Virus record (IMG/VR): IMGVR_UViG_3300046002_009819
Location: 1-26,378 of that record
Source of the DNA: a virus
Reading direction: 5' to 3' (one strand)
Length of the DNA stretch: 26,378 bases
This document shows positions 1-18,495 of the stretch, piece after piece. The notes below the pieces were generated by a model. The model was not told where the DNA came from, made no database searches, and saw only the letters and a list, made by a program, of their open reading frames with translations. A program made the translations under genes and the position numbers. How positions within the stretch are numbered: the stretch's first letter is position 1; every line of letters begins with the position of its first letter.

Positions 1-391
1 ATTCAAACAGTGTTCTCATAAAATCCATAAATCTGTCTGAGCAAAAAATACTATACAACAAAGCGTACGGTCCATAGCTAAAACCGTATTGAACGTAAGT
101 ATTTACGGCTGGTCCTAAAAAACCAGAGGGTATGAGGCCTCTCATCATTCCAGAAAGTCTCATGGCAAAAGCTGTTACCCAGCTAAAAGCAGTTGATAGT
201 TCATTTCCTAAAGTTTTAGGAGCTGGTCTTAAACATACGACTGCTGCGTTCATTAATTCATCCAAGGTACGTGCTGAATTTAATTTCTTTTTGCAGGGGT
301 TTAAAGCAGGACCATCAACCGGATCAATAGAGACTCTAACCTCTTTATTTAGGGCTGATATCAACGTTTTTGATAGTTTGTAGTTATTCAT
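1..391 (-). CDS. Partial putative internal head protein with N-terminal targeting-like segment
   Basis: Reading frame open from an ATG at 391 on the minus strand to the left edge of the window, about 130 residues, so the C-terminus is missing. I do not recognise the body of the protein. Its first 17 residues (MNNYKLSKTLISALNKE) closely match the start of the next gene upstream on the same strand (MDKYKLSKIFISALNSE) and resemble other left-arm proteins. The segment is basic then hydrophobic and ends in a glutamate, as expected for a capsid-targeting peptide removed by a prohead protease. The rest contains hydrophobic stretches around residues 65-115. It follows the 407-808 gene by 15 bases and has no GTGTAT element of its own, so it is probably in the same minus-strand operon. 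Packaging in the head is inference. Confidence 0.75.
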   Translation of the reverse strand, partial: MNNYKLSKTLISALNKEVRVSIDPVDGPALNPCKKKLNSARTLDELMNAAVVCLRPAPKTLGNELSTAFSWVTAFAMRLSGMMRGLIPSGFLGPAVNTYVQYGFSYGPYALLYSIFCSDRFMDFMRTLFE

Positions 392-406
392 ATTGAATAG
401 TTTTCA

Positions 407-808
407 TTATGCTAATAGGGGATCAGCATAATATCCTTTTAATATTTCTTTAACTTCAAGAGTTGCCTCACGTGGTGTTTTTCCACTAAAACGTGCTCTA
501 ATATAAAAAAGCAGCAGTTTTCGCATCACTTTATTATACGCTCGCATCATAATCTCTCTGTCCCGTTCGTTTTTTATTGGGTATAGTCTTGTCCATGCTC
601 TTTCCCAATTAGGCAACTCCGGCCATGCTCCGCGAAAAGTTATATTAAATTCTTTCTCAAACTCTTTTTCTTTTCGATAATATTCTTCGTTATCGCCATC
701 CGGACTAGCGTTCATATTTATAGCGTTCCGCATTCCTTTAAAATAAAGTTCGCTTAATTCACTATTAAGAGCCGATATAAATATTTTTGATAACTTGTAT
801 TTATCCAT
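407..808 (-). CDS. Putative internal head protein, 133 aa, with N-terminal targeting-like segment
   Basis: Begins with ATG at 808; an AAAGAG SD-like run lies about 6-8 bases upstream and a GTGTAT element 29 bases upstream, both on the minus strand. Residues 1-17 form the segment MDKYKLSKIFISALNSE, nearly the same as in the downstream gene (391 to 1), while the remaining sequences are unrelated. The body is highly charged and looks alpha-helical, with aromatic residues such as the WPELPNWERAW stretch, and no signal peptide. I do not recognise a domain. The shared leader on different bodies suggests a modular signal, most simply a prohead-targeting peptide cleaved after Glu17. Role in the virion is inference; the gene itself is well supported by start, promoter and tight packing. 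Confidence 0.8.
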   Translation of the reverse strand: MDKYKLSKIFISALNSELSELYFKGMRNAINMNASPDGDNEEYYRKEKEFEKEFNITFRGAWPELPNWERAWTRLYPIKNERDREIMMRAYNKVMRKLLLFYIRARFSGKTPREATLEVKEILKGYYADPLLA

Positions 809-830
809 TTAATCTCTTTAATTATAAATC

Positions 831-837
831 CATACAC
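831..837 (-). promoter_or_regulatory. GTGTAT-type late promoter candidate for 407-808
   Basis: On the minus strand GTGTATG is followed by GATTTATAATTAAAGAG and then the ATG at 808, 29 bases from the first G. It matches the element found before many other units in the window. Confidence 0.5.
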
Positions 838-839
838 TA

Positions 840-1958
840 TTATACAGAACCCCGCTCAATAGCTTCCTGTATTGACTCTTTAGTATATCCTTCTAAATCT
901 ACTCCAAGCATCGCCGCAAACATCAACAGAGCTGCCGCTAGAGCCGGCGCTGCTGTGCCGCCACTTGCTATTCCACCAGCCACCACCACCGCTATTGCAA
1001 GAGCCAGTAATACGCCAATTGTTATCTGCTCTTGGTTGTTTGCTATAAAATTACTAATAGAAGCAGCGAATTCAGATATAACATTTCTTGCTCCACCCAT
1101 AGTATTTAAAATTATTCCACCTGCAGCTGTGATATAATCAGAAACATTATCCCAAAGGTCAGATAAAGCCTTTTCACGTTGCTCATCCGTTGCACCTATT
1201 TCACTAAATGCGGTATTAAGCGCCGCGAGCGTGCTGCACATACTAGCAATTGGATCCACACCAAGTTCAGGTAATGCCTCAATTTGTTTTCTCATAAAGT
1301 TTGCTAGTTGACCTTCCCAAGAAGCTAATGCAGATGGTATAGCCCCCCAGGTTATTAAAACCGAAGCAATTGCATTTGCTATTGCAACACCAAGATCTGT
1401 AACAGCGTTTCTATATGTTCTAGCCCAATATCTACTTAACCAGGCATAACCACTAAGAATTTCTTTCATTTGAGTCCAAAAACTTTTAAAAGCATTAGAA
1501 CAAAGAATGTTTAAAAATGTAGACCAGTCGCCGCTATTAGTAATAGTCCCTGCACCGCCCATTATTTCTGTATAGGCAGAGGCCATCCATTCCGCAAAAG
1601 ATCTGGCTAATGCTTTTTCAAGATTAAGAACCGCTTTTACCATCCGCGCAAAATCCGAAAAGAATTCCGCACGTATTTTGTTTTCTTCCACAGGAACAAC
1701 TTCGGGTTTTTTATTTTCTAATACGGGAGCTGGGGAATCCGGTGTGTCAGAATTTTCTTTTCTTAATGGAGCAGCAAGACACTCCATATAGGCCACAACA
1801 GCAGTTTCCCATGTTAAGGCAGCTGCTATTTTTTTTGCGCATTCTTCGTCAGACACTGGAACTTTTTCAATATCTGCTGAATTACCTGCTTGGTAAATAG
1901 TTGCCTCTTTATTCATGGCGGCAATAAATCTATAATTTAAATTATTGTGAAAAGTCAT
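840..1958 (-). CDS. Putative internal head or ejection protein, 372 aa, hydrophobic C-terminal region
   Basis: I chose the ATG at 1958 rather than the upstream in-frame TTG at 1976, because the TTG sits next to the GTGTATT promoter-like element. The N-terminus runs MTFHNNLNYRFIAAMNKE and ends in the same hydrophobic-Asn-Lys-Glu pattern (MNKE, compare LNKE at 391) seen in neighbouring genes. A proline- and glutamate-rich linker lies at about residues 65-90. The middle is alanine-rich and helical with many tryptophans. A strongly hydrophobic stretch at about residues 305-355 looks like one or two membrane segments. This layout would suit a protein ejected from the head that inserts into the cell membrane during DNA entry, but that is inference and I recognise no family. 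It heads the minus-strand operon that continues into 808-407 and 391-1. Confidence 0.75.
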   Translation of the reverse strand: MTFHNNLNYRFIAAMNKEATIYQAGNSADIEKVPVSDEECAKKIAAALTWETAVVAYMECLAAPLRKENSDTPDSPAPVLENKKPEVVPVEENKIRAEFFSDFARMVKAVLNLEKALARSFAEWMASAYTEIMGGAGTITNSGDWSTFLNILCSNAFKSFWTQMKEILSGYAWLSRYWARTYRNAVTDLGVAIANAIASVLITWGAIPSALASWEGQLANFMRKQIEALPELGVDPIASMCSTLAALNTAFSEIGATDEQREKALSDLWDNVSDYITAAGGIILNTMGGARNVISEFAASISNFIANNQEQITIGVLLALAIAVVVAGGIASGGTAAPALAAALLMFAAMLGVDLEGYTKESIQEAIERGSV

Positions 1959-1965
1959 CACTTTA

Positions 1966-1972
1966 AATACAC
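1966..1972 (-). promoter_or_regulatory. GTGTATT promoter candidate, leaderless spacing, for 840-1958
   Basis: Minus-strand GTGTATTTAAAGTG runs straight into the ATG at 1958, 14 bases from the first G, leaving no room for a ribosome binding site. It is back to back with the plus-strand element at 1984, forming a compact divergent promoter pair about 11 bases apart. Confidence 0.5.
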
Positions 1973-1983
1973 TCAATCAATTC

Positions 1984-1990
1984 GTGTATA
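1984..1990 (+). promoter_or_regulatory. GTGTATA promoter candidate for 2013-2600
   Basis: GTGTATAAAATAAC lies 29 bases before the ATG at 2013. Almost the same 25-base block, including a following GCCCTGGTATA, is repeated at 2618 before the paralogous gene. Confidence 0.55.
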
Positions 1991-2012
1991 AAATAACAGC
2001 CCTGGTATAACA

Positions 2013-2600
2013 ATGAGCGCCATTGATAAATTAAAAAAAGTATTAGCTGTTGAATATGACTGCAAGGCGCTCAAAGATAAGTACCGGGTGTGCCGTACAC
2101 ATATATTAGTTTGTGAAAAGGAAGGCAGAGACGCGGCCGATAAGACAACGTCAATCACCAGTGTTGGTGACGTAGTATTTTCACCGTTTGACTGGACTTT
2201 TGACAAATGCATGAACGGCAAGGGTTGCACCAATATACCGTTTGGCTCTTCTCCAAATACTAATACTGCGGACGGTAGTTTCCAAAAAGGAAGAGTAAAC
2301 GCCGCCGCGCCTCCAGTCCCATTATATTCTGACCCTGAAAACTCTGCAGGAGAAAGAATAGAAAAAAATAAACGCAAGTGCACAATTATAAAAGATGGTT
2401 TATACAGAATATATGAGTTAGACGCGTCAGAACAAAAAGAACTTTTTAATGGCGGTTGTGATCCATACGTTCGTGATGGTACAAGTTATAATAAGGCATA
2501 TAACCAGTCTTTATTTGAAAAGAATACAAGAAAAATTCTTAAAAATTACCTTAATTTAGTGGAGCAAGCAATGAAAGCATTCCCCTGCTCTGGCAAATAA
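2013..2600 (+). CDS. Putative internal head protein, 195 aa, paralogue of 2646-3302
   Basis: The first 14 residues are MSAIDKLKKVLAVE, almost identical to those of the next gene (MNPIDKLIKVLAVE), and end in AVE, the triplet also present at residues 56-58 of the MCP. The bodies of the two proteins are related too: a KY-x-x-C repeat with spaced cysteines near residues 20-40, an aromatic FDWTFDKC block, a GSFQKGR block, RIEKNKRKC and an EQKELF-x-x-GC motif. Cysteine positions are largely conserved, which suggests a stable fold with disulphides or a metal site. I do not recognise the family. The start lacks a clear SD and instead has TGGTAT four bases before the ATG. Targeting to the prohead is inference. 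Confidence 0.8.
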   Translation: MSAIDKLKKVLAVEYDCKALKDKYRVCRTHILVCEKEGRDAADKTTSITSVGDVVFSPFDWTFDKCMNGKGCTNIPFGSSPNTNTADGSFQKGRVNAAAPPVPLYSDPENSAGERIEKNKRKCTIIKDGLYRIYELDASEQKELFNGGCDPYVRDGTSYNKAYNQSLFEKNTRKILKNYLNLVEQAMKAFPCSGK

Positions 2601-2617
2601 TACAGCTTTGCGTATAT

Positions 2618-2624
2618 GTGTATA
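2618..2624 (+). promoter_or_regulatory. GTGTATA promoter candidate for 2646-3302
   Basis: GTGTATAAAATAACG lies 28 bases before the ATG at 2646. The block from 2618 to about 2642 is a near-perfect copy of 1984-2009, differing by one base insertion. Confidence 0.55.
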
Positions 2625-2645
2625 AAATAACGCCCTGGTATACTA

Positions 2646-3302
2646 ATGAACCCTATTGATAAATTAATAAAAGTGTTAGCTGTTGAAAAAGAACCCGAGT
2701 CTTGCGCGGCTATCCGTAGTAAGTACAGTGAATGCAAAAGAAATATCATTGCGTGTATGGCTGAAGGCACCAGAAGAGTCAACGAATCAAAGTGGTTAGG
2801 TAATCACACCGCAATCTCAGCGTTCACTTGGAGTTGGGATGAGTGCACTACACCCGCCTGCAAAGAATCAACGTTAGAAAAAATACCAGCCGGTTCAACC
2901 ACTGTAACCCCTGGTGGTGGCGGCGATGGTGGTTTTCAAAGAGGCAGAGGAAATGGCGCAGCACAGCCCTCGGTTCTAACTACAGCACCCCCAACAAGAG
3001 GACCAGACGAGCCTAGGCGTGATTATAATAAAGAGCTTAGAATAGAAAAAAATAAACGCCTCTGTGCCATTTCAAAAGATAATTTAAACAGAAGATTTTC
3101 TTCTGAAGTTGCAGAGCAAAAAGAACTTTTTAAAGCTGGTTGTATTCCGTACCTTATTACCACAACCGGCAATAGCCCAAATCAAGGAGCTATTGAGGCT
3201 GCACGCAAGCAAAAGCTTGACACAAACGTAAAAAGAATTACTAGCGATTACATGAAGCAAATGGACAAGTTACTTAAAAGTAAAACCTGTACTGATAAAT
3301 AA
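2646..3302 (+). CDS. Putative internal head protein, 218 aa, paralogue of 2013-2600
   Basis: Starts MNPIDKLIKVLAVE, then follows the same plan as its upstream neighbour: cysteine-spaced helical region (residues 19-40), FTWSWDEC, GGFQRGRGNGAA, RIEKNKRLCAISKD, AEQKELFKAGC, and a lysine-rich helical end. It is longer because of a low-complexity glycine, proline and threonine insert at roughly residues 85-120. No domain is recognised. It has its own GTGTAT element and, like its paralogue, TGGTAT four bases before the ATG in place of an SD. The tandem arrangement with duplicated leader DNA points to gene duplication followed by divergence. Cleavage after Glu14 and packaging in the head are predictions. 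Confidence 0.8.
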   Translation: MNPIDKLIKVLAVEKEPESCAAIRSKYSECKRNIIACMAEGTRRVNESKWLGNHTAISAFTWSWDECTTPACKESTLEKIPAGSTTVTPGGGGDGGFQRGRGNGAAQPSVLTTAPPTRGPDEPRRDYNKELRIEKNKRLCAISKDNLNRRFSSEVAEQKELFKAGCIPYLITTTGNSPNQGAIEAARKQKLDTNVKRITSDYMKQMDKLLKSKTCTDK

Positions 3303-3311
3303 TATACATTA

Positions 3312-3318
3312 GTGTATA
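3312..3318 (+). promoter_or_regulatory. GTGTATA promoter candidate for 3339-3671
   Basis: GTGTATATAAAAAAG lies 27 bases before the ATG at 3339, with an AAAGAAAG purine run between. The GTG of the element is in frame with the gene but is better read as promoter than as start codon. Confidence 0.5.
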
Positions 3319-3338
3319 TAAAAAAGAAAGAAAAAACA

Positions 3339-3671
3339 ATGTCATTAGAAAAAGCAATTCAAAAGTTAACGGAAGTAATTAGTGCCGCCACTCCAAGAAT
3401 GGGCGTACCCGATGGTTCGCCAATTGGGAGAGAGTATGTGAAGAAAAATCCTTGTACCCAAGAGTACCCACCAGGACATCCTTCATACTGTTTTTGCTTC
3501 AAACAAGCAAATCCGGAATTTTCCGGAGCCTGTTATTTTAAGTCAGGTAACAGTTGCTATCAGTTAATCTATAGACAAACCTCCATGAATCCAGTACGAA
3601 CGAAAGTGGACTGCGCCACTGGTGGTAGTAGTGGAATCGATGGCGGTCCGGACATGTCTCCAATAACATAA
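3339..3671 (+). CDS. Small cysteine-rich putative internal head protein, 110 aa
   Basis: Start taken as the ATG at 3339, preceded by a purine-rich AAAGAAAG stretch; an in-frame GTG at 3312 lies inside the GTGTAT element and is unlikely to be used. The N-terminus, MSLEKAIQKLTEVISAA, is an amphipathic helix of the same general type as the neighbours' leaders but without the terminal glutamate. The rest has several cysteines (for example in CFCFKQ), prolines and glycines, with little helix potential, and may be a small disulphide- or metal-stabilised domain. Not recognised. It is followed at once by a strong hairpin shared with the convergent gene 3746-4762. Confidence 0.7.
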   Translation: MSLEKAIQKLTEVISAATPRMGVPDGSPIGREYVKKNPCTQEYPPGHPSYCFCFKQANPEFSGACYFKSGNSCYQLIYRQTSMNPVRTKVDCATGGSSGIDGGPDMSPIT

Positions 3672-3698
3672 AAATTTTAATATATAAAAATCAATTAA

Positions 3699-3726
3699 AA
3701 TAGCCCTCCGTAACAGGAGGGCTATT
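3699..3726. terminator. Bidirectional intrinsic terminator between convergent genes
   Basis: Perfect 11-bp stem, AATAGCCCTCC and GGAGGGCTATT, around a 6-base loop (GTAACA). T-rich sequence follows on both strands (CTTTTAC on plus; the stem's own ATT then TTAATTG on minus). It separates the plus-strand gene ending at 3671 from the minus-strand gene ending at 3746. Confidence 0.85.
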
Positions 3727-3745
3727 CTTTTACACCTTTAATAAC

Positions 3746-4762
3746 TTACGGGTTTAAGTCAGGGCTTGAAACAAACACGTGATTATTATATCTAACTAAA
3801 ACCGCTTTGGTTTCTGCACCTCGATAGCCTATGATAGTATCTTTCCAAAACTTAGCAGGAAACGGATGCCTATTTGCTGACGCCACTGTGCTTGTAGCCC
3901 ACCCCTCTTGCGAGTCGGCTGTTTCAGGATTTAAATACAGGTATGTTCGCTTTGCTTGCGCTTCTGTCATACCACGCTCCACTAAAATTCGTCTTCCGTA
4001 AGCCGGACTCACTCCTGCCATGCTAGGATTTGCCCCACATAGACTTAATAAGTAGTTTAGTCTTTTTTCAAAATTTTCTCTGCTCGCTCTAGGATTAGAT
4101 CCAGCCGCCTCTCGAACCGCAGCATTATTACTAGGGTACCGGTCGTTCCAGCAACTAAAAGCTCGTGGAGTTAAAAATTCACGAACCACCGGCGAGTCTT
4201 CAACCCAAGAAGGAACCACTGATGCAGGTAGTCTATTTACCTTCTTTTGTGCTCTATTATTTGCAATAGCCATCACCAGAGATTTGCCTTCCACACTCTC
4301 CGTAGAAGCCTCTCCACATATAGTAGCCAAGTACATTAGATCTTTGGTAATTTTTTCTAACGGCTTTGGCGGTTCCCGACACGCTTCAGGAGTTCCAGAA
4401 GGTGGTACTATGGTTTCGCTTCCTGGTTCTCCAGTAACAGTATCCAAGGGAGTGTTTGAACCGACTGATATTAATCTCCACCGTCCGTCAGATGGAACAC
4501 CCACTATTGTCGGTGGTGTTGTTGGATAATTAACTTGACCGTTTCCGTCTGCATCATATGCTGGCACCGGCACGTTTACTGGCATACCGTCTGGCCCAGC
4601 AATATTTTGTAAATAAATGCTTCCATAGCCTGGACCGGTAAACCACGCAAACATATAGCAAGTAAAACCACCGGGCGGAGGATTGTTTTTTCCTGTGTTT
4701 ACGGTTGGCGGAGCTACCATAGCAGCACCAAGCACACGTCTTAATTTATTTATAGAATTCAC
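3746..4762 (-). CDS. SleB-type cell wall hydrolase, probably head- or virion-associated, 338 aa
   Basis: Residues about 138-300 look like the SleB cell wall hydrolase family (Hydrolase_2): LATICGEASTES with Glu151 in the position of the presumed catalytic glutamate, GKSLVMAIANNRAQ after it, and the family hallmark FSCWND at 202-207. Such enzymes act on peptidoglycan. The N-terminus MNSINKLRRVLGAA resembles the leaders of 2013 and 2646 (MSAIDKLKKVLAVE), although the AVE motif is missing. Residues 20-135 are proline- and glycine-rich with no recognised domain. The start is a GTG at 4762, 14 bases from a GTGTAT element and without an SD. It lies among putative internal proteins and far from the holin candidate, so an enzyme delivered during entry is more likely than the lysis endolysin. 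The latter remains possible. Confidence 0.75.
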   Translation of the reverse strand: MNSINKLRRVLGAAMVAPPTVNTGKNNPPPGGFTCYMFAWFTGPGYGSIYLQNIAGPDGMPVNVPVPAYDADGNGQVNYPTTPPTIVGVPSDGRWRLISVGSNTPLDTVTGEPGSETIVPPSGTPEACREPPKPLEKITKDLMYLATICGEASTESVEGKSLVMAIANNRAQKKVNRLPASVVPSWVEDSPVVREFLTPRAFSCWNDRYPSNNAAVREAAGSNPRASRENFEKRLNYLLSLCGANPSMAGVSPAYGRRILVERGMTEAQAKRTYLYLNPETADSQEGWATSTVASANRHPFPAKFWKDTIIGYRGAETKAVLVRYNNHVFVSSPDLNP

Positions 4763-4769
4763 AATTTTA

Positions 4770-4776
4770 AATACAC
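4770..4776 (-). promoter_or_regulatory. GTGTATT promoter candidate, leaderless spacing, for 3746-4762
   Basis: Minus-strand GTGTATTTAAAATT is followed directly by the GTG start at 4762, 14 bases from the first G. The arrangement matches that at 1972 and 14855. Confidence 0.5.
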
Positions 4777-4788
4777 AAACGCGAACAA

Positions 4789-5190
4789 CTATATAGTTGG
4801 AAATTTTCGTCTTGTGGACTTCACGGAGTTATAACTCAAGCCTCTGGTTATTTTTGAGAAAATTGTCTTAAATCTAGATGTGGCCACCGGCGGAACATAA
4901 AGCGTAGAACGAAATGATTTAACATAGCACTCCAACTGCCCAGTGCTTGTATCATAAGTTAAATCAATAAACTCGTTTTCAGCACTCCCCGTGACTACCG
5001 TTACGGTAAGCGAGGAATTACCATCTAAAGCCGGAGTATTAGCTACTAAAACTTCACCGGTTGACTGCCTAGTTATTACGCCGTTAGTAAAAGAACCAAA
5101 GCACTCCACGCCGTCTGGTGTTAAATCAGTCACATTAAGCAAAAAACTTGTGGCTGTTCTGTTTGATATTGTGACAACGGGTGTAGGCAT
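4789..5190 (-). CDS. Small beta-rich protein with shared C-terminal FPTI tail, 133 aa
   Basis: Begins MPTPVVTISNRTATSF and continues with alternating hydrophobic and polar residues rich in Thr, Ser and Val, typical of a beta-sandwich. No family is recognised. The last 27 residues, starting FKTIFSKITRG and ending STRRKFPTI, closely match the end of the adjacent upstream gene (IKTIFSILTRG to SPRRQFPTI); the N-termini (TISNRT and TTSNRT) are also similar. The two genes are therefore tandem paralogues, 28 bases apart. DNA just beyond both stop codons (ATATAGTTGG) is conserved as well. A capsid surface or internal structural role is possible, but nothing here proves it. Confidence 0.7.
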   Translation of the reverse strand: MPTPVVTISNRTATSFLLNVTDLTPDGVECFGSFTNGVITRQSTGEVLVANTPALDGNSSLTVTVVTGSAENEFIDLTYDTSTGQLECYVKSFRSTLYVPPVATSRFKTIFSKITRGLSYNSVKSTRRKFPTI

Positions 5191-5218
5191 TATAGTGTAG
5201 TTTTTTTAATAAAAATAA

Positions 5219-5611
5219 TTATATAGTTGGGAATTGTCTTCTAGGGGACTGTACAGATTTATAAGACCCTCCCCTTGTGAGTATTGAAAATATGGTTTTA
5301 ATTCTTTTAATTGCTCCTGAAGAAGCTGAAAAAGCCGCTATATTAAATGTGTACTCAAAACAGTTTGGATTTTCTTCTGCATCAATTGCATATCTAGCGG
5401 TAAATCCAGCGCTTGTTATTCCAGTTAAACTAACTTGCCACGAATCTAAATTTAACTGAGTTGCATTCGAATAACTAGCCGCAAGAACATTGTTTTGAGC
5501 ATCGTAAATAACTATAGCTATAGCAGGGCAAGCCCTAAACTCGTCATCAAATCCTGAACCAGTTAAATCCACTGAATTTATAGTTCTATTACTGGTGGTA
5601 ATCGTTGGCAT
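5219..5611 (-). CDS. Small beta-rich protein with shared C-terminal FPTI tail, 130 aa
   Basis: ATG at 5611 overlaps the stop codon of the upstream gene by one base (TAATG), so translation is probably coupled. The N-terminus MPTITTSNRTINSVDLTGSG precedes a beta-rich body. The C-terminal segment IKTIFSILTRG to SPRRQFPTI matches that of 4789-5190. The basic RR-x-FPTI terminus is the most conserved part, while the middles have diverged, which suggests that the tail is a functional tag or an assembly contact. No known domain recognised. Confidence 0.7.
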   Translation of the reverse strand: MPTITTSNRTINSVDLTGSGFDDEFRACPAIAIVIYDAQNNVLAASYSNATQLNLDSWQVSLTGITSAGFTARYAIDAEENPNCFEYTFNIAAFSASSGAIKRIKTIFSILTRGGSYKSVQSPRRQFPTI

Positions 5612-6024
5612 TATATGTTAGGTATTTCTTTTCTTGTGGTGTTTTGAGTAGCAACACCCTTTTTGGCTTTTGTTAATCTGGCTGTCTTTTTTTTATTATA
5701 TAAAACAGAAACTACTGCTTGACTAACGGCTTCATAAGTTATTGGTATACTAAATTCATCGGCAGGAACAGGACCAGTAGCTACGTATTTTAAATACACC
5801 GTTTCATTAGTTCCAACGTCAAAACTTTCACTCCAATTTGCTATCGATATGTTTTTTCCAGTAGTGTTTAGAGCTGTGTAAGCACCAGCAACTCCTATTT
5901 TATAGTATAGATCATGTGTGTATCTTTCAGATGGCAGCAAGCCAGAACCCAAAAATCCTACAACTTGTAGTTTTGAGCCATCTCTTTGCGCGCAAGAAAC
6001 GGTAATAGTTGTTGCGCTAGACAT
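5611..6024 (-). CDS. Small beta-rich protein with IPNI tail, 137 aa
   Basis: Third member of the minus-strand cassette. ATG at 6024 overlaps the stop of the HTH gene by one base (TAATG). The body is Thr-, Ser- and Val-rich, with regular alternation suggesting an immunoglobulin-like or fibronectin-like sandwich (for example TVYLKYVATGPVP). The C-terminus is basic (KKKTARLTKAKKG) and ends NTTRKEIPNI, which parallels the RRKFPTI and RRQFPTI ends of the two downstream genes but is more distant. The function is unknown to me. Confidence 0.7.
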   Translation of the reverse strand: MSSATTITVSCAQRDGSKLQVVGFLGSGLLPSERYTHDLYYKIGVAGAYTALNTTGKNISIANWSESFDVGTNETVYLKYVATGPVPADEFSIPITYEAVSQAVVSVLYNKKKTARLTKAKKGVATQNTTRKEIPNI

Positions 6025-6236
6025 TAATTATTTTCAGACTTGCCGGCAACAGCTTGTCTTAATTCAACTCGCCCACGACCAGAAAGTTTAATTAAACCAA
6101 GTCTTCGTCTCATTTCTCTTACAGACTTAAGGCTTCGGTTAATTGAAGCCGCGATATCTAAATCTTTCATGTTCGCGGACTCTGACTTTAAAAACTGTTT
6201 ATGTTCCTCGCTCCATCTTTCTTTTTTGTCTTGCAT
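6024..6236 (-). CDS. Small Myb/SANT-like helix-turn-helix DNA-binding protein, 70 aa
   Basis: Residues 7-48 contain a tryptophan (W8) followed by an acidic helix, then a helix-turn-helix with DLDIAASINRSLKSV and MRRRLGL, as in Myb/SANT-like bacterial and phage proteins. A closely similar pattern (KEIAENIGCSIKTV and RRSVGM) opens the candidate small terminase at 6866. An AAGGAG SD lies just before the ATG, and a GTGTATT element is 25 bases upstream. It is the first gene of a minus-strand operon with 6024-5611, 5611-5219 and 5190-4789. It could regulate the divergent sigma-like gene at 6283, whose start region contains a 7-bp inverted repeat; that link is inference. Confidence 0.75.
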   Translation of the reverse strand: MQDKKERWSEEHKQFLKSESANMKDLDIAASINRSLKSVREMRRRLGLIKLSGRGRVELRQAVAGKSENN

Positions 6237-6254
6237 TTTATTCTCCTTTTAATT

Positions 6255-6261
6255 AATACAC
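6255..6261 (-). promoter_or_regulatory. GTGTATT promoter candidate for the 6236-4789 operon
   Basis: Minus-strand GTGTATTAATTAAAAGGAG lies 25 bases before the ATG at 6236, with a good SD in between. Confidence 0.6.
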
Positions 6262-6267
6262 CTCTGA

Positions 6268-6282
6268 ATACTATAATAGTAT
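6268..6282. promoter_or_regulatory. Inverted repeat with TATAAT at the sigma-like gene start
   Basis: ATACTAT and ATAGTAT form a perfect 7-bp inverted repeat around one central A. A TATAAT hexamer at 6272-6277 ends five bases before the GTG start at 6283, so a transcript from it would be leaderless or nearly so. The palindrome could be an operator overlapping the -10 element. No convincing -35 was seen. Confidence 0.4.
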
Positions 6283-6882
6283 GTGAAAAGGCCTCAGAAG
6301 GATACAATATTTGCCTTTTTAAAAAAAATCTCTGTAACGAGCGACAAAAAGGTTACTCATCAAGAGGTCGTGGATTTAATTGAAAAAATTGCTAAAACGC
6401 ACATGAATAAAACATTTGCGTACATGACTTCTGACGATATAGCTTCACAGACTAGATTAATCTGTATACAACAATTAAAATTTTATGAACCAGAAAGGGC
6501 GGCTGGCTGGGATGACATAAACTCTCTTGAGCGTTGGCTTAACAGGGTTGTAAAAAATAGATTAAAAAACTTTTATCGAGATCACTGTGGAAGCTTAAAT
6601 GAAAAACATCAAAAGGCACGACGATCCCTTAGCGCAAAAGCCAAAAACAGGAATGAAGACATGGGCGATTCATTTCATCCATCAACTTCAAAGAATGAAA
6701 CAGAAGACTCTGTTATTTTTAATGAGTTTAGAGATTTCGTCGAGGCAAGACTAACAGAAGAGTCTTTAGAAATATACAGAGCCTGTATGTCAGAAGAGCC
6801 AGTTAACTCATACTATAAAAACAAACTTAAAGTTGAGATATCAGAAATATTAAAAGGGTGGAATAATGGCGAAAAGAATTGA
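6283..6882 (+). CDS. Putative phage RNA polymerase sigma factor (sigma-70 region 2-like), 199 aa
   Basis: Residues about 45-103 resemble sigma-70 region 2: MTSDDIASQTRLICIQQL, then FYEPERA, then SLERWLNRVVKNRLKNFYRD, the usual order of helices for core polymerase binding and -10 recognition. A clear region 4 helix-turn-helix is not visible in the C-terminal half. The length is close to that of late sigma factors such as T4 gp55 (185 aa), which also lacks a normal region 4. That would suit promoters with a -10 element only, as the GTGTAT elements here appear to be. The start is a GTG with TATAAT eleven bases upstream; an ATG two bases earlier is followed at once by a stop. The gene overlaps the next one by 17 bases. 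Specificity for GTGTAT is inference. Confidence 0.65.
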   Translation: MKRPQKDTIFAFLKKISVTSDKKVTHQEVVDLIEKIAKTHMNKTFAYMTSDDIASQTRLICIQQLKFYEPERAAGWDDINSLERWLNRVVKNRLKNFYRDHCGSLNEKHQKARRSLSAKAKNRNEDMGDSFHPSTSKNETEDSVIFNEFRDFVEARLTEESLEIYRACMSEEPVNSYYKNKLKVEISEILKGWNNGEKN

Positions 6883-7708
6883 TGACGCTGACAAGACTTA
6901 CATAGAAAATAACTGTAAATATAAAACAGATAAAGAAATAGCTGAAAATATTGGCTGTTCTATAAAAACTGTGGAGAGACACCGGCGAAGCGTTGGTATG
7001 CAAAAAAACGCAACAAAAGACCCGGTCGTCCTGATAGAACAGAAGAAAGAATTTATAAACCGGGATATGTTTGATTTTCAGATGCGGTCATTTGAAACTA
7101 GTCCACGCGGAATGCGGGTTAAAGATCAGCTACCAAAAAAAGACTGGCAAATCTTTTGTGAAGAGTGGGCAAACTATAAGCTTCAGCTGGAAGACCTTAC
7201 TCATACCGAGCAAAACACAGTTGAGCAAATAATTTTTTTGAAGCTCAGAACCGATAAAAATCAAAAAGAATATTACGACGCTATTAACTTAAGAGACCGG
7301 TTAATGGAAGAAAACGGTATAACCGACGTTAAGGATTTAGATCTCACTAATCCAAAACAGGCTGAAGTATATCAGAAAATATTTAATGCCTCTTTACGAA
7401 CAACCGATCTAAATAAAGAATACAAAGACCTGCTTGATAAACTTGTAAAATTAAATGAAACGCTTAACGCAACGAGAAGACAGCGAGAGGAAAAAGGTAA
7501 GGTTGGAGGCGACACGTTCTTTTCCCTCTGCAAGAAGTTTGAGTCTACTAGAACAAGAGAAAAAGAAGGTCGCATGGCTGAGCTTCTTAAAATTTCAATG
7601 AACAATAACACAAACAACTTAAGAAACGCTGTAGAGTTTTTAGACGGTGAAAACGCACCACAACTACTAGACTCAGTAACAATAGAACTAACAAAGGATC
7701 AAGAATGA
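6866..7708 (+). CDS. Candidate small terminase subunit (HTH plus coiled coil), 280 aa
   Basis: Residues 20-45 form a helix-turn-helix (TDKEIAENIGCSIKTVERHRR) related to that of the protein at 6024-6236. The rest is charged and helical, with probable coiled-coil segments near 105-150 and 175-210 (DLLDKLVKLNETLNATRRQ). A DNA-binding N-terminus followed by an oligomerising coiled coil, encoded upstream of the large terminase, is the usual plan for a small terminase that recognises packaging DNA. It is longer than most small terminases, and three other genes separate it from the large subunit, so a regulator is an alternative. The ATG overlaps the previous gene and has a GGGTGG-like SD. The stop overlaps the next start (ATGA). 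Confidence 0.5.
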   Translation: MAKRIDDADKTYIENNCKYKTDKEIAENIGCSIKTVERHRRSVGMQKNATKDPVVLIEQKKEFINRDMFDFQMRSFETSPRGMRVKDQLPKKDWQIFCEEWANYKLQLEDLTHTEQNTVEQIIFLKLRTDKNQKEYYDAINLRDRLMEENGITDVKDLDLTNPKQAEVYQKIFNASLRTTDLNKEYKDLLDKLVKLNETLNATRRQREEKGKVGGDTFFSLCKKFESTRTREKEGRMAELLKISMNNNTNNLRNAVEFLDGENAPQLLDSVTIELTKDQE

Positions 7709-8709: not shown

Positions 8710-9070
8710 AAAAAATGGAAGATATAGTCCATCCTACTGGTTGTTTAGAAAAGAAGTGCTTAAGAGAGATTGTTTTCAGTGTCAGTTTCCTGGGTGTTTA
8801 GAAAAGAAAAATCTTGAGGTTCATCATATTAAAAAATATGCAGAATCAACAAGACTTAGAACTGAAAAATCTAACGGGATTACTCTTTGTAAAAAACACC
8901 ACGCCTTGGTTACTGGTAAAGAAGAATCTTTTGAGACAGCGTTTTTTAAAATAATCTGTGAAAAAAACATAGAGGAAATTCAAAAGTTAAATGAACCAGG
9001 GAGACAAGGGAGCCTTAAAAAAGGCGCAAAAGACAATAGAAAACGTTATATACGCAAACGTTATCGTTGA
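8672..9070 (+). CDS. HNH endonuclease, 132 aa
   Basis: Contains a compact HNH nuclease domain: paired cysteines C37 and C42, then LEVHHIKKY with H51-H52, then N68-G69-I70-T71-L72 and the closing CKKHH at 73-77. The cysteines and one closing histidine probably bind structural zinc. The N-terminus is very basic. I chose the GTG at 8672, because no ATG lies upstream of the domain and the GTGTATT element is 15 bases away; this overlaps gmd by 38 bases. In HK97-like phages an HNH protein near the large terminase helps it cleave DNA at the packaging site, and that could be the role here. A homing endonuclease is the alternative. Functional assignment beyond nuclease is inference. Confidence 0.85.
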   Translation: MAGKRLRQPRRNRKNGRYSPSYWLFRKEVLKRDCFQCQFPGCLEKKNLEVHHIKKYAESTRLRTEKSNGITLCKKHHALVTGKEESFETAFFKIICEKNIEEIQKLNEPGRQGSLKKGAKDNRKRYIRKRYR

Positions 9071-11508: not shown

Positions 11509-11536
11509 TGTATGTTAAATTGGGCTATAATGGTAT
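11508..11536 (+). promoter_or_regulatory. GTGTAT element plus TATAAT and TGGTAT before the portal gene
   Basis: GTGTATG at 11508 is 33 bases before the ATG at 11541. A TATAAT hexamer at 11526-11531 overlaps a TGGTAT (11531-11536) that ends four bases before the ATG. There is no SD. Either promoter element could serve the portal. Confidence 0.45.
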
Positions 11537-11540
11537 TATC

Positions 11541-13187
11541 ATGTCTGAAGATCCAAATTTTTACATCAGCGGCAATAAAGAAAAACAAGAAGGCTTAGAA
11601 AAGCTTGGAAAAGCTATGGCTAGCCAAGATATGGCCGTTGCTGGTTTTTATTCAAATCTTGAAGAAGGTATTTCTGTAAGACCGCCTTTTACTAGAAATA
11701 CCTACGAAAGATTTAGACCAGGCGAGAGAATACCTGAAAAAGACGATGACATCATGACCTCGTGCAGAGATGCATATCAGAGCGTTGGGGTTATCAGATC
11801 TGTGGTAGATTTAATAACTGAAACAGCGGTAGAAGGTCTAGAGATAGTTAGTGAAAATGAAGGCATTACAAACTTTTTCAAAAGCTGGTCTCAAAATGTA
11901 AACTTAAGAGAAAGGGCTGAGAGGTTTGCTAATTATTTTGTGGTTGAGGGAAATGTCGTTGTACGTAAAAAAATTGGTAAAATAGATATACCAACCGCAA
12001 GAAGAATGAAACGTGGATCGGCAGCAACTAAAAATGTGTCGATTCCAATCGGTTATATATTCTATGACCCACAAACAATTCGATTAATTGGCGGACCTCT
12101 TGCTATTTTTGCAGACTATAAGAAGTGGGGCGTTAAAGTTAGTAACGCTCAAATGCAAACTTTAAAAGATGCATACGCTAAAGACAGTGAAATAGTAGAT
12201 AAGCTTCCTGCTGAAATAAAAGAAATAATAACGTCTAAGGGTATTTTGGCTGAAACTCTTATACCTATTCCGCAGGATGAGGTGTGGGTTGCTCATTACA
12301 AGAAAAAAGACAGCGAAGTTTGGGCAAAAAGCTTTATTTTTAGTATTTTACACGACGTTATATATAACGAGAAGCTTCGGCTTGCAAAAATAAGCGCTCT
12401 TGACAGTTGGTACAACTCTATTAGAATTTGGAAGCTTGGTGATCACAAAGAAGAGATTTTACCAGATTCTGGTTCAATTGTAAAGCTGGCAAAGATTCTT
12501 GAAAACCATACTGGTGGCAATCTCGATATTATCTGGGATTCCATGTTAACTTACGAACAGTTCTTTCCGCCAATTGAAAAGCTTGAAAACTTTAAAGAAA
12601 ATTATGAGTCCATGCTTTTAGGTCTTGGTGTTCATCAAACTCTTATTGGTGGAACGGGTAGCACTGGCGGCGACTCTTTCGTTGGTTTAAGAAACCTAAT
12701 GAAGAGAATCGATTGCGTTCGTCGAGCCATGAATGATTGGATTACTAATGAGATTGATGAAGTTTGTGATGTTATGGGTTTTCAGGATAGACCCAAGGTA
12801 AGATTTAATAACGACAACTTGTTTGATCAGCCTAGCTATTTTAAACTTTTAGTTGAGTTAGTTGATCGAGGTGTGGTTTCTAATGAAACTGCTGTAACTA
12901 AGATTGGTGAGATGTGGGATATAGAAAAGAGTCGCATCAAATCAGAAGAAGAAGCTCGTAAAAATAAAGAAATGCCAGAAAAGCTTGGTCCGTTTATACA
13001 ACCAAAAATATCTGAGTCAAACTTTAAAAAGAACAAAGAAATGCAGGGTCTTGTAAGCGAAACCGCTGGACCACAGGTTCCTCCAGGAAAACCAGGAAGA
13101 CCTGCTGGATCTAAAGATACTGTTACTAGAAGCCCAAAAAAGAAAACCAGAGCAGATGTAAATAATGATGTTACTGATGAAGTTTAA
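11541..13187 (+). CDS. Portal protein, 548 aa
   Basis: Forms the dodecameric ring at one capsid vertex through which DNA is packaged and ejected. The identification rests on position directly after the large terminase and on portal-like sequence: an N-terminal clamp region (YQSVGVIRSVVDLITETAVEG, residues about 80-100), a YFVVEGNVVVRK strand pair, a stem-like segment SFIFSILHDVIYNEK, a DIIWDSM to YEQFFPP region and an LGLGVHQTLIGG to RIDCVRRAMNDWI helix. The C-terminal tail is basic and proline-rich with GKPGRPAGSK, an AT-hook-like motif. I start at the ATG at 11541, because the in-frame GTG at 11508 belongs to the promoter element. No prohead cleavage motif like that of the internal proteins is evident. 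Confidence 0.85.
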   Translation: MSEDPNFYISGNKEKQEGLEKLGKAMASQDMAVAGFYSNLEEGISVRPPFTRNTYERFRPGERIPEKDDDIMTSCRDAYQSVGVIRSVVDLITETAVEGLEIVSENEGITNFFKSWSQNVNLRERAERFANYFVVEGNVVVRKKIGKIDIPTARRMKRGSAATKNVSIPIGYIFYDPQTIRLIGGPLAIFADYKKWGVKVSNAQMQTLKDAYAKDSEIVDKLPAEIKEIITSKGILAETLIPIPQDEVWVAHYKKKDSEVWAKSFIFSILHDVIYNEKLRLAKISALDSWYNSIRIWKLGDHKEEILPDSGSIVKLAKILENHTGGNLDIIWDSMLTYEQFFPPIEKLENFKENYESMLLGLGVHQTLIGGTGSTGGDSFVGLRNLMKRIDCVRRAMNDWITNEIDEVCDVMGFQDRPKVRFNNDNLFDQPSYFKLLVELVDRGVVSNETAVTKIGEMWDIEKSRIKSEEEARKNKEMPEKLGPFIQPKISESNFKKNKEMQGLVSETAGPQVPPGKPGRPAGSKDTVTRSPKKKTRADVNNDVTDEV

Positions 13188-13218
13188 GGTCTATAAGCAT
13201 TAATTAAAGGAAGAAAAC

Positions 13219-14868: not shown

Positions 14869-16791
14869 ATGGAAATTTTTGAAAACGAAAAAGTGATATC
14901 TGAGCTTGTTTCTAATAACAAGATATCATACCAATCACAGATTGTTATAGACAAAAGTACCGATGTTAAAAAATTAAACAATATTTGCGCTGGAAACGCT
15001 TGTGCAATTGCTTCAATTGCCCCAAATGGATATAAGCCGACAGATGACGTTACTGCGATTTCGTCAATTCTTGTGACAGACATTTGGAATGCAAACAATG
15101 ATGTTTTTACCTCTGAAGAAATTCTTGCCAGGTATGAAACTGCGCAATTCAAACCAATTAACTGGATGCATAAAGGCTCCGAAGACAGCGAAAATGAAAA
15201 CATCGGTGTTATGCTTGACGCTACTTTAGTTTATGGAGATATTCCAGAGATTAATATTATAAAAGGAGCAGAGGATATTCAATGCTCTGATTTAAAAACC
15301 TGCAGTGGAAAAATACACGTAAAACAAGATGGCATTATTTGGTCGGGGTATTTTCCAACCTATGCTTCTAAAATCGATAAAGGCATTAAAGACGGCTCTC
15401 TGTTTGTTTCCATGGAATGCTTTTTTGATGACTTCGGTTACGCTTTAAGAAAAAACGAAGATTCTAACATTATTTTCCTGGACAGAACAAGCGCCACATC
15501 AAAAATGAGCAAGGATTTGACCGCTTTTCAAGGCAGCGGATACACCAAATATAATGGTGAAAAATACCAAATCGGCAGATGGTTAAAGAAAATCACTTTC
15601 TCTGGTCAGGGAGTGGTGTACGAACCAGCCAATAAAACTAAAAACAAAATCAATAGTATAATTTTTGCAGACGCTGTTAATCCAGTTCCAACCCTGCAGG
15701 AACCTGGCACAATACTTAATACAAATGAGATGCCGGAGGGTATGAGCGATGATGTTTCAAACATTTCTAGAACAGACACTCCTGAAGGTCTACGATACAG
15801 ACAACAAATGCCGACCACTTACCAGCCACCAAAAGACGGCTTTTTGTTCTTTACTGCAAAAGAAGCAGAAACTGTTGGAAAAATAAAACTGGGCTGTACT
15901 GGATACCATCTCTTTCAAGAAAACAGGCATGGAGACAAACCGCTGTTATATTCTGCTCTTATAGCAGATCCTTCAGATCTTGAAAAACAAAATCAAATTC
16001 CACAATTTAGACCGTGTTCTGACGAGCGAGAGCTGCGATTTGCCATGAATGAACTTGGTATTAGTACTGAAACCGATAATAGTTTTTATATAGATAAACC
16101 AGAAGGTGATGGTAGCGAGGTGACTACTTTTAATCCGCAAGGCGAACCGCCAGCAGAAGGACTGCCGCCAGCTGCCGATAAAACAATGATAACTAATAAC
16201 AAAGCGACACGTGGAAACTCAAACGCTTTAGACTTTGATAAAAAATTAAATAAGGTGTATGTTAAGAAAGAGGAAAACATGTCAGACACAAAAAATCTTA
16301 CCGGTTTAGAACAAGCACTAACAGAAAATATACAATTAAAAGAGCAGATTACCTACGCAGAGCAGGCAATTAATTTAGCCGCAAAGCACATTGAAAAAAC
16401 CAATGCTTCTTTAGTAAAGCTTAAAGAACTGCAAGAGTTTAAAGATGAAGCAGAAGCAATTATCAATGAGGCTTACGATAACCAAACTGCGCAAGACAGA
16501 CTCGCTACCATGAAAGAAATTGTTGGAGATAGTTACAACGAAGAAGATCTGGCAGAACTCAAGAGTATGTCAGAAGCTTCTTTCGCGGAGCTAAAGAAGG
16601 CAGTTGCTAAAGTAAGCAAGAAGATCGAAAAAACGATCACCGATCAAGAAATAATTCTTAAAGCAACCGCAGCAATCAAAGAAGCTAGCAAACAAAAACA
16701 AGTATCACCAGTTTTCGTGTTGGAGTCAACACCTGGTAAAAAAGAAGACGCTGCGAAAACACTCATTGATCACGCAATGAGACGCAGATAA
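14869..16791 (+). CDS. Prohead maturation protease fused to scaffold domain, 640 aa
   Basis: Residues about 45-195 look like a herpesvirus/HK97-type prohead protease: INWMHKGSED with the likely catalytic His101, followed by NIGVMLDATLVYGD, and later LFVSMECFFDD with the likely nucleophile Ser181. This enzyme would trim the MCP and internal proteins during maturation. Residues about 310-400 hold an extra domain (FLFFTAKEAE, LGCTGYHLF, RPCSDERELRF). Residues 471-640 are a charged coiled coil rich in Glu, Lys and Ala, as in scaffolds. An internal ATG at 16279 with its own SD and GTGTAT element would give the scaffold alone. The start at 14869 follows a leaderless-type promoter. The gene precedes the decoration-like and MCP genes, the usual position. 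Confidence 0.8.
   Translation: MEIFENEKVISELVSNNKISYQSQIVIDKSTDVKKLNNICAGNACAIASIAPNGYKPTDDVTAISSILVTDIWNANNDVFTSEEILARYETAQFKPINWMHKGSEDSENENIGVMLDATLVYGDIPEINIIKGAEDIQCSDLKTCSGKIHVKQDGIIWSGYFPTYASKIDKGIKDGSLFVSMECFFDDFGYALRKNEDSNIIFLDRTSATSKMSKDLTAFQGSGYTKYNGEKYQIGRWLKKITFSGQGVVYEPANKTKNKINSIIFADAVNPVPTLQEPGTILNTNEMPEGMSDDVSNISRTDTPEGLRYRQQMPTTYQPPKDGFLFFTAKEAETVGKIKLGCTGYHLFQENRHGDKPLLYSALIADPSDLEKQNQIPQFRPCSDERELRFAMNELGISTETDNSFYIDKPEGDGSEVTTFNPQGEPPAEGLPPAADKTMITNNKATRGNSNALDFDKKLNKVYVKKEENMSDTKNLTGLEQALTENIQLKEQITYAEQAINLAAKHIEKTNASLVKLKELQEFKDEAEAIINEAYDNQTAQDRLATMKEIVGDSYNEEDLAELKSMSEASFAELKKAVAKVSKKIEKTITDQEIILKATAAIKEASKQKQVSPVFVLESTPGKKEDAAKTLIDHAMRRR
16255..16260 (+). promoter_or_regulatory. 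Internal GTGTAT promoter candidate for the nested scaffold
   Basis: GTGTATGTTAAGAAAGAGG lies inside the protease reading frame, 24 bases before the in-frame ATG at 16279. AAAGAGGAAAAC provides a good SD, as at normal gene starts in this window. Confidence 0.5.
16279..16791 (+). CDS. Nested scaffold protein, 170 aa, in frame within the protease gene
   Basis: The ATG at 16279 (Met471 of the protease) is preceded by AAAGAGGAAAAC, a better ribosome binding site than the protease gene's own start has, and by a GTGTAT element. The product begins MSDTKNLTGLEQAL and is almost wholly charged helix with heptad-like spacing (ENIQLKEQITYAEQAI and SFAELKKAVAKVSKKIEK), ending in basic HAMRRR. A scaffold made from the 3' part of a protease gene is known from lambda, where Nu3 lies within gene C. 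It would provide many scaffold copies per protease. Separate production is inferred from the signals, not shown. Confidence 0.6.
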   Translation: MSDTKNLTGLEQALTENIQLKEQITYAEQAINLAAKHIEKTNASLVKLKELQEFKDEAEAIINEAYDNQTAQDRLATMKEIVGDSYNEEDLAELKSMSEASFAELKKAVAKVSKKIEKTITDQEIILKATAAIKEASKQKQVSPVFVLESTPGKKEDAAKTLIDHAMRRR

Positions 16792-16838: not shown

Positions 16839-17402
16839 ATGGCATTAAAACCTGATAGAAACGAACTCGACGTAGACATCTCTTATTTCTGGGCAACCGG
16901 CATTGGTTATGGCAGTGAAAGAGGAGGCTGGGTTTCCGCAACTGGATCCACCGCCGCCTCTGGTGCTGGCATGGATCAAGCAGTTAACCAAGTTTGGTAC
17001 AGCTTAAACGCAACCGGACTTCGTCCGCTCGGCCTTCTGCTGAACGACGTTGTTAACGTAGACTTAACCAGACAGATTCTTAATCCGTACAAGAGCGAAG
17101 TGCAGGTTGGTGACAAGATCACCGTGCTCAAGAAGGGTTATGTCTTAACTAATAGAATCGTAACCACAATTGGACCAAATAGTGTTGCTATTACTCCTGG
17201 CGCTCCAGCTTATACAGGCCCAAGCGGCTTTATCAGCTCTGTTGCCAGCGGATCATTGGGTCTTGGTAACTCAACTACAGCCAACGGCACCGGTAAAGAT
17301 TTTAATGCTCACATTAACAGCCCGTCTGGCTCACACGTTATTGGTAAGTTCCTGAGTGCGGCTGACGAAGACGGTTACGCGAAGGTCTATATAGACTTAT
17401 AA
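16839..17402 (+). CDS. Putative capsid decoration or head structural protein, 187 aa
   Basis: Located between scaffold and MCP, where lambda-type phages encode their decoration protein. The sequence is Gly-, Ser-, Thr- and Val-rich with beta-strand character; notable blocks are GLRPLGLLLNDVVNVDLTRQ (near residues 60-80), VQVGDKITVLKKGYVLTNRI and the C-terminal IGKFLSAADEDGYAKVYIDL. No helix-rich or catalytic region is seen. Codon use looks richer in C and G at third positions than in the left arm, similar to the adjacent MCP, consistent with high expression. The name rests on position and character, not on a recognised family. Confidence 0.55.
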   Translation: MALKPDRNELDVDISYFWATGIGYGSERGGWVSATGSTAASGAGMDQAVNQVWYSLNATGLRPLGLLLNDVVNVDLTRQILNPYKSEVQVGDKITVLKKGYVLTNRIVTTIGPNSVAITPGAPAYTGPSGFISSVASGSLGLGNSTTANGTGKDFNAHINSPSGSHVIGKFLSAADEDGYAKVYIDL

Positions 17403-17430: not shown

Positions 17431-18495
17431 ATGTCAAATGAAATTAAAGATAGTGTAGAAACAAGTGAGTTAACTGACGCAGCAAAGCGCCTTTTGTCCG
17501 ACGCTGGCAGCAATGATAAAAACACCTCAATGAGAGCACAGGCTCAAATTGCTAAGGGTATTGCTTCAGCCTTGAATGAGTTCAATCACACTCAGGCTGT
17601 TGAAGGACCAATCCGAGAAGGCATTCTGAAGGGAGACATTGTGTCTGACATCTTTGTAACAGAAGACTTCAGCTACACGAATGATCTTAGAATTCCTCTG
17701 GATCTGCTTGCTCCTGGAACCGAGAAGGATCACGTTGCTTACGTTATCCCAGATCACGGCAAGATTCCGATGCGTAGAGTTGAGTCTGATTACATTCAGT
17801 TGAATACCTATATGATTGGTAGCTCAATTGACTGCACTCGCAAGTTCTTGAAGAACGCAAGATTTGATGTTCTTCGCCGAATGATTGAAGTGCTCAACAT
17901 GTCCTTCGTGAAGAAGAACAACGATGACGGCTGGCAGACTCTGCTTGCCGCAGCATACGGTCGTGGTATCGCAGCATTTGATGCCGATGCACCAGCCGGT
18001 TCGTTTACGCCAAAGCTTGTTAGTCTCATGAAGACTGTTGTTCGACGTAACGGTGGCGGTAACTCCACCAGCACGAATCGTCGTAAGCTTACTGACTTGT
18101 ACTTGTCTCCAGAGGCATTCGAGGACATGAGCGCATGGGGTCTCAACTTAGTGTCTGACGACATCCGTTCCTCTATCCAGAGAAGTGATGAAGGTGCTGT
18201 TCGCGGCATGTATGGTGTAAACTTCCATGATGTTGACGAGCTGGGCGTTGGTCAAGAGTACCAGCTTTACTACACCAGTGTGTTAAGTGGATCGCTTGCT
18301 TCTTCTGATGAAGAGTTGGCAATCGGTTTAGATCTGACTCAGCCAGACAAGTCTTTCATTCACCCTGTCTCACAGAAGATTGAAGTGACTGAAGATGACA
18401 ATCTTCACAGACACGGTCTTGTTGGATTCTACGGTTCGATGGAAGGTGGATGGGCTTGCTTAGACGTTCGTTACATCCTTGCTGGTTCATTCTGA
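17431..18495 (+). CDS. Major capsid protein (MCP), 354 aa
   Basis: Probable HK97-fold coat protein: it follows protease, scaffold and decoration-like genes, has the expected length, and is followed by a strong terminator. The N-terminal 58 residues are charged and helical (a delta-like region) and end in AVE before GPIREGI, a plausible prohead protease site that gives a mature protein of about 296 residues. The body has an E-loop-like region (YVIPDHGKIPMRRVESDYIQ, near 110-130), a long spine-like helix (ARFDVLRRMIEVLNMSFVKK) and a C-terminal domain with LYLSPEAFEDM and GLVGFYGSMEGGW. Codons such as CGT, CTG and AAG are frequent here, unlike in the left arm, as expected for the most highly expressed virion gene. 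Confidence 0.85.
   Translation: MSNEIKDSVETSELTDAAKRLLSDAGSNDKNTSMRAQAQIAKGIASALNEFNHTQAVEGPIREGILKGDIVSDIFVTEDFSYTNDLRIPLDLLAPGTEKDHVAYVIPDHGKIPMRRVESDYIQLNTYMIGSSIDCTRKFLKNARFDVLRRMIEVLNMSFVKKNNDDGWQTLLAAAYGRGIAAFDADAPAGSFTPKLVSLMKTVVRRNGGGNSTSTNRRKLTDLYLSPEAFEDMSAWGLNLVSDDIRSSIQRSDEGAVRGMYGVNFHDVDELGVGQEYQLYYTSVLSGSLASSDEELAIGLDLTQPDKSFIHPVSQKIEVTEDDNLHRHGLVGFYGSMEGGWACLDVRYILAGSF

Follow-up and report, generated by a model that had tools for sequence, protein, structure and literature searches.

Phage T4 targets its internal proteins (IPs) to the head by means of propeptides of 10–19 residues, and T4-like phages vary the set of proteins that carry them (PMC9026906). In phage P1, the first 30 residues of DarB target that protein to the head (PMC9024508). 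Here we describe a possible counterpart, a series of short N-terminal leaders, or tags, shared by seven genes in the left arm of IMG/VR virus record IMGVR_UViG_3300046002_009819. The record, 26,378 bp long and complete as a record (hereafter the window), is a fragment of a tailed-phage genome that encodes a large terminase (gene 9535), a portal protein, a predicted protease–scaffold fusion, and minor and major capsid proteins (table 1). Leader genes are named by their start positions. The leaders belong to two classes, recur on changing bodies in related phages and may direct late proteins to the virion.

Two classes of leader in the window

The original prediction had listed seven N-terminal segments in this arm, all of which we located, and had described the genes as beginning alike but differing in their bodies. 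The similarity of the starts indeed exceeds chance, but it is that of two leader families instead of one. A single family was ruled out by ungapped comparison, in which similarity between the classes was mostly at chance level. Class I comprises the leaders of 2013, 2646, 3339 and 4762, with the consensus IxKLxxVhxAA/VE, and class II those of 391, 808 and 1958, with the consensus YxxxxFISALNKE. Each class I leader, scored against a profile built from the remaining three, outscored all 1,904 pseudo-starts at internal Met residues; for class II, pairs of leaders were compared with internal segments (p ≤ 0.005).

The bodies differ in part. Two pairs are homologous while the remaining bodies are distinct, which leaves about five body families among the seven genes. 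Proteins 2013 and 2646 are whole-length paralogues (32–34% identity, E about 1e-26 or better), and their genes are alike also in about 30 nucleotides (nt) upstream and in the first 42 nt. Gene 391 is completed in contig G020, which is near-identical to the window and extends its left arm; the C-terminal part of the complete protein is homologous to that of 1958 (E = 5e-6). Protein 2013 has a weak match to phrog_18101, a family of unknown function. The structural model of the SleB-like protein 4762 was unusable (mean predicted local distance difference test score, pLDDT, 36.5), and its assignment is sequence-based.

Leaders recur on changing bodies in related phages

We compared the window with relatives L004–L031. 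The 27 IMG/VR relatives found through the capsid protein include three large genomes of 122–125 kb (G001, G002 and G006). In a collection of annotated phages, positions 1–20000 of the window had no DNA match and the capsid and 2013 proteins no protein match; the large terminase had distant matches alone (<26% identity).

In seven relatives, a profile of the four class I leaders of the window recovered about 25 left-arm leader genes, with scores of 15–24, while the top internal segment of any protein scored 12.1. The family is far larger than the original prediction had reported, with roughly 12–18 leader genes in each 122–125-kb genome, arranged in at least two clusters. The weaker members form a second tandem cluster (G006 78999–82918, G001 63484–67513 and G002 115089–116822), whose genes begin MKRSIEDxIKLVAxKQ and continue with Pro-rich linkers and Cys-rich bodies. 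Tagged proteins of this cluster (G006 78999–82557 and G002 115089–116822) end in a repeated Cys-rich module, GACCxxxGxFGGFxCxxxxxxxCxGxFYxGxxCxxIGGxNCG.

Leaders of the MSLEK type, of which the window has one and G006 five, are 82–83% identical over 17 residues, although most of the bodies behind them cannot be aligned (E < 1e-3). In the window, the similarity of the 3339 leader to several relatives (82–83% identity) is confined to residues 1–17/18. Among the 17 codons of these leaders, synonymous differences (mean 5.33) outnumber nonsynonymous ones (mean 3.44), which indicates that the peptide, and not the DNA alone, is conserved.

The tags are also found on cell-wall hydrolases. One leader type is carried by a GH24 lysozyme in G001, G002, G005 and G006, and in the window and G003 by a SleB-like hydrolase. 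The GH24-type lysozyme of G006 (8459–9304) matches phage lysozyme, endolysin, and internal and tail lysozyme families. To see what the leader of the SleB enzyme follows, we used profiles built from leaders on other bodies, and it tracked the lineage rather than the enzyme. Scores with own-lineage and other-lineage profiles were 28.2 versus 10.5 in the window, 16.3 versus −4.4 in G003, 18.4 versus 6.4 in G013, 27.8 versus 9.8 in G010 and 28.9 versus 9.4 in G008, with a weak lean towards the own lineage in G011 and G009. This pattern would be expected if all leaders of one phage bind one partner that varies between lineages.

Class II leaders precede bodies with transmembrane (TM) segments in every case checked but 808. 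Tagged bodies are rich in Cys (4.1% versus 1.9% in G006, p = 3e-5; G001, p = 3e-4; G002, p = 0.07). For this test and the promoter test below, leader genes were curated by hand, and the quoted p-values rest on lists drawn up before the motif was known; adding leader genes found once the promoter list was known made the association stronger, and those figures are excluded. Cys-rich bodies, wall hydrolases and TM proteins together suggest that the cell envelope is where the tagged proteins act, during entry if they are virion cargo or during exit if they serve lysis.

In G001 (22–32 kb), G002 (28–38 kb), G003, G006 and G016, the arm with the tag genes adjoins a GC-rich stretch (0.50–0.64 versus 0.40), which contains a tRNA-Arg in G001 and G002. 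Three genes (58774, 62919 and 103524) of a distant 154-kb relative, G019 (L100–L107), start with MKIR[TA]GFV[AS]NSS[ST]SF and have bodies of no detectable homology.

Leader genes and virion genes share a putative late promoter

The most enriched hexamer upstream of genes was GTGTAT, which precedes 13 genes of the window, where 0.59 would be expected, and 28–31 in the three large genomes, where the expectation is about 2. It occurs 23 times in the window, compared with a mean of 9.8 and a maximum of 20 in 100 shuffles. Six of the seven leader genes have it upstream; the exception is 391, located 16 nt downstream of 808. The hexamer is commoner before leader genes than before other genes (p = 0.0027, 0.0030 and 0.031). 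It also precedes the genes of the portal, the protease–scaffold fusion and the minor capsid protein, as well as genes 18578, 22087 and 25394, the last being the start of a tape-measure homologue. By analogy with T4 late promoters, GTGTAT is a putative late promoter.

Some tag genes (1958, 4762 and 8459 of G006) have GTGTAT ending only 8 nt 5′ of the start codon, which makes the ATG start of 1958 and the GTG start of 4762 plausible. If GTGTAT is a −10 element, the mRNAs of these three genes would be nearly leaderless. Several relatives have a terminator-like hairpin immediately 5′ of GTGTAT, and the tag gene therefore looks like a self-contained cassette.

The head genes probably include a maturation protease

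Gene 14869 lies between the portal and capsid genes. An AlphaFold2 (AF2) model of the 276 N-terminal residues of its product was of moderate quality (pLDDT 72, predicted template modelling score 0.70). The top Foldseek match was a herpesvirus protease at a non-significant E = 0.22, and on structural realignment the first 20 rows were all herpesvirus proteases (Z 9.1 to 6.0). H101, H150 and S181 are invariant in the protease alignment; in our reading, H101 is present in distant homologues too if the KPxN gap is shifted. From the fold match, the three invariant residues, the fusion to a scaffold-like C-terminal part and the gene position, a head-maturation enzyme is very probably present. The modelled domain would have the herpesvirus-assemblin-like fold used by T4 gp21 and assemblin, and the C-terminal part is a probable scaffold.

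Between the portal and protease genes, the protein at 14130–14768 (minus strand) matches phrog_3704, labelled ferredoxin (E = 1e-48). Next to the leader genes, at 4789–6024 (minus strand), are three small immunoglobulin (Ig)-like proteins, of which 4789 and 5219 are mutually homologous. They share a C-terminal tail, RFKTIFSKITRGxSYxxxxSxRRxFPTI, which ends RKEIPNI in the third (5611), is conserved in relatives and is perhaps a docking tail. A leader-like docking helix at these C-termini was considered and rejected (profile scores −5 to 4).

Genes akin to those of the capsid, the portal region and the terminase region occur in two metagenome-assembled genomes (MAGs), the Heimdallarchaeota chromosome CP070695.1 (L113; capsid 44% identical) and the SAR202 contig VFHP01000009.1 (L112; capsid 49% identical). 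Each could be either an integrated virus or a mis-binned contig.

Table 1. Coordinates of the leaders, leader genes, GTGTAT hexamers and head genes in the window.
Feature	Position	Strand	Remarks
Class II leader MNNYKLSKTLISALNKE	341..391	-	class II pair comparison
Leader gene 391, truncated at window end	1..391	-	complete 333-aa copy in G020 (L076:14356-15357), predicted TM segments
Class II leader MDKYKLSKIFISALNSE	758..808	-	class II pair comparison
Leader gene 808, 133 aa, no TM segment, no Cys	407..808	-	
GTGTAT of 808	832..837	-	
Class II leader MTFHNNLNYRFIAAMNKE	1905..1958	-	homologues MKKELNYRFISALNKQ in G002/G003/G016
Leader gene 1958, 372 aa, TM segments ~185-209 and 308-357	840..1958	-	
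GTGTAT of 1958	1967..1972	-	8 nt before start
GTGTAT of 2013	1984..1989	+	
Class I leader MSAIDKLKKVLAVE of Cys-rich protein 2013-2600	2013..2054	+	leave-one-out score 23.5, 0/1904 pseudo-starts as high
Leader gene 2013, 195 aa, Cys-rich body	2013..2600	+	paralogue of 2646-3302; relatives in G001, G002, G003, G005, G006
GTGTAT of 2646	2618..2623	+	
Class I leader MNPIDKLIKVLAVE	2646..2687	+	leave-one-out score 22.2, 0/1904
Leader gene 2646, 218 aa, Cys-rich	2646..3302	+	paralogue of 2013-2600
GTGTAT of 3339	3312..3317	+	
Class I leader, MSLEK type, MSLEKAIQKLTEVISAA	3339..3389	+	leave-one-out score 13.3, 0/1904
Leader gene 3339, 110 aa, Cys-rich body (6 Cys)	3339..3671	+	
Class I leader MNSINKLRRVLGAA, GTG start, then Pro-rich linker	4721..4762	-	leave-one-out score 16.9, 0/1904
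Leader gene 4762, 338 aa, SleB-like peptidoglycan hydrolase	3746..4762	-	G009/G010/G012 homologues match Hydrolase_2 (PF07486) and SleB, below cut-off
GTGTAT of 4762	4771..4776	-	8 nt before start
Portal protein	11541..13187	+	phrog_2739 portal, E = 1.7e-9; GTGTAT at 11508-11513
Predicted maturation protease (N-terminal ~270 aa) fused to probable scaffold	14869..16791	+	AF2 model, herpesvirus fold match; GTGTAT at 14855-14860
XM1 gp53-like minor capsid protein	16839..17402	+	PF23982, E = 2.8e-4, below cut-off; GTGTAT at 16812-16817
Major capsid protein, N-arm with TQAVE-GPIREG	17431..18495	+	phrog_2522 and PF25209, weak; relatives aligned

What the leaders may do

The layout of this locus, with modular leaders on unrelated bodies, adjoining head genes, a shared putative promoter and a protease, is what would be expected of capsid-targeting sequences. 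We put at about evens (roughly 0.5) the reading in which the leaders have a capsid- or virion-targeting role and dock late proteins on one common assembly partner. They would be short N-terminal address tags, borne by late proteins that are otherwise unrelated and whose set changes. During particle assembly, the tags would dock their bodies on the common partner, most likely the scaffold or core of the prohead; the tagged bodies would then be enclosed in the virion, ejected and delivered at infection. Virion cargo is our preferred reading, given how numerous the tagged genes are and how they turn over, the putative promoter they have in common with virion genes, the probable maturation protease and the examples of T4 and P1.

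A more elaborate version is tentative. Soluble Cys-rich proteins and wall hydrolases would enter virions by way of class I tags and membrane-spanning proteins by way of class II tags, the tags would co-evolve with a lineage-specific partner, and cargo would be gained by swapping bodies behind terminator–promoter–tag cassettes.

Several points weigh against virion targeting. The promoter is a reading of the sequence, and Cys-rich bodies would suit a virion no better than an extracytoplasmic site. In the larger genomes no lysin other than the tagged one could be recognised, which fits an endolysin equally. A leader-like segment was not demonstrated in the scaffold or capsid: the resemblance of the class II leader to the capsid N-arm (IASALNEF) ranked 15th of 7,954 window segments and was rejected. 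The lineage pattern has an exception in the SleB leader of G012, which scored 11.5 with its own and 14.6 with the other lineage. No cultured relative was found.

Alternatively, the tags could be permanent anchors on another late structure, such as the tail, the capsid exterior or the neck, with the bodies displayed or acting as tail-associated enzymes. We consider this unlikely. Many class I leaders are followed by Pro/Ala-rich linkers, as in tethered decorations, the G006 lysozyme matches tail and internal virion lysozyme families about as closely as it does endolysins, and the putative promoter is of late type. However, we detected no partner signature in the tape-measure and tail genes, and small Cys-rich proteins in such number and variety would be unusual for tail parts.

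To a similar, low degree, the tags might instead be addresses for the host envelope or a phage holin complex, where the late proteins would serve lysis or remodel the envelope without being virion parts. We retain this explanation because no other lysin was recognised: the sole recognisable lysin of each genome is tagged, and its slot switches between the GH24 and SleB types. A search of the larger genomes with six Pfam families found no second lysin, a weak negative since known lysins matched near the threshold. The TM segments of class II bodies and the Cys-rich bodies also fit. Against it, the leaders are not export signals; a Sec or Tat signal was rejected, with maximum 15-residue Kyte–Doolittle means of 0.13–0.95 and no hydrophobic core of some 8–15 residues close to the N-terminus. 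Nor is a membrane-binding amphipathic helix clearly supported, as the hydrophobic moment (percentiles 0.37–0.96 among internal segments) is unremarkable for several leaders.

The original prediction in its full form, in which T4-like propeptides are cut after Glu at residues 14–18 by the prohead protease, is improbable. The predicted protease has the right fold, five leaders of the window do end in Glu, the AVE before GPIREG in the capsid N-arm resembles the AVE leader ends, and gp245 of phage SPN3US cleaves after A-x-E (PMC10052503). The Glu ending, however, holds for the window and not for the family. The last aligned position of 18 class I leaders is Ala in 11 and Glu in 4, and Glu was rejected as a conserved leader end; class II relatives have NKQ or NRQ in place of the NKE of the window. 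In the capsid N-arm, the window clade has AVE-GPIREG, while other relatives have AVD, AQA or PVQA at the matching place. The two classes also disagree on a motif, the would-be sites in the window being A-V-E in class I and N-[KS]-E in class II, neither of which is the [LI]-x-E that T4 gp21 requires (PMC9026906). With Glu unconserved in both aligned leaders and orthologues, cleavage after it by the prohead protease is unsupported and tag removal there is unlikely as a general rule; cleavage at another residue is possible.

That the leaders are functionless by-products of duplicated promoters and 5′ ends, spread as mobile cassettes, would fit the shared upstream DNA of the 2013/2646 paralogues and the recurrence in G006 of terminator, GTGTAT and MSLEK start as a unit, but is very hard to reconcile with the excess of synonymous differences among MSLEK leaders, the consensus that the leaders of each lineage share, and their recurrence in separate clusters that lack shared upstream DNA.

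If the tags load the particle, the delivered genes of this lineage could be recognised from sequence alone among many unknown ones, and the tags would be a second, independent answer to the problem, faced by T4 and P1, of packaging a varying effector set. If the two-class code were true, no other phage of this size would be known to have as large a set of tagged cargo. Should the tags serve lysis or tail assembly instead, they would still be a new kind of shared address for late proteins. They are short and clear enough for a trial on a reporter protein.

Comparison with known systems

Outside phages, the encapsulation peptides of bacterial microcompartments also consist of a short N-terminal helix and a Pro/Ala-rich linker on unrelated cargo, as here. 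They serve another compartment, and the amphipathicity of the present leaders is not consistently high.

The ejection proteins of SPN3US and phiKZ are numerous and packaged in the head, as is proposed for the tagged proteins; a protease there cuts after Glu (A-x-E in SPN3US, PMC10052503), and the 2013 and 2646 leaders end in A-V-E. Unlike the leaders, the propeptides of those phages are mostly long and unshared, and A-x-E is unconserved here.

As with T4 IPI–III and Alt, a short N-terminal segment within the 10–19-residue range is common to unrelated small, putatively late proteins, the protein set varies among related phages and a head protease of related fold is probably encoded (PMC9026906). 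Unlike in T4, a conserved [LI]-x-E end is absent, there are two leader classes, the bodies include wall hydrolases and TM proteins, and packaging is predicted.

The Dar proteins of P1 also resemble the system proposed here, in that an N-terminal tag of fewer than 30 residues directs protein to the head and antirestriction proteins are delivered (PMC9024508). Whereas the Dar N-termini were reported to have no consensus (PMC9024508), the leaders described here have a clear one, carried by many genes.

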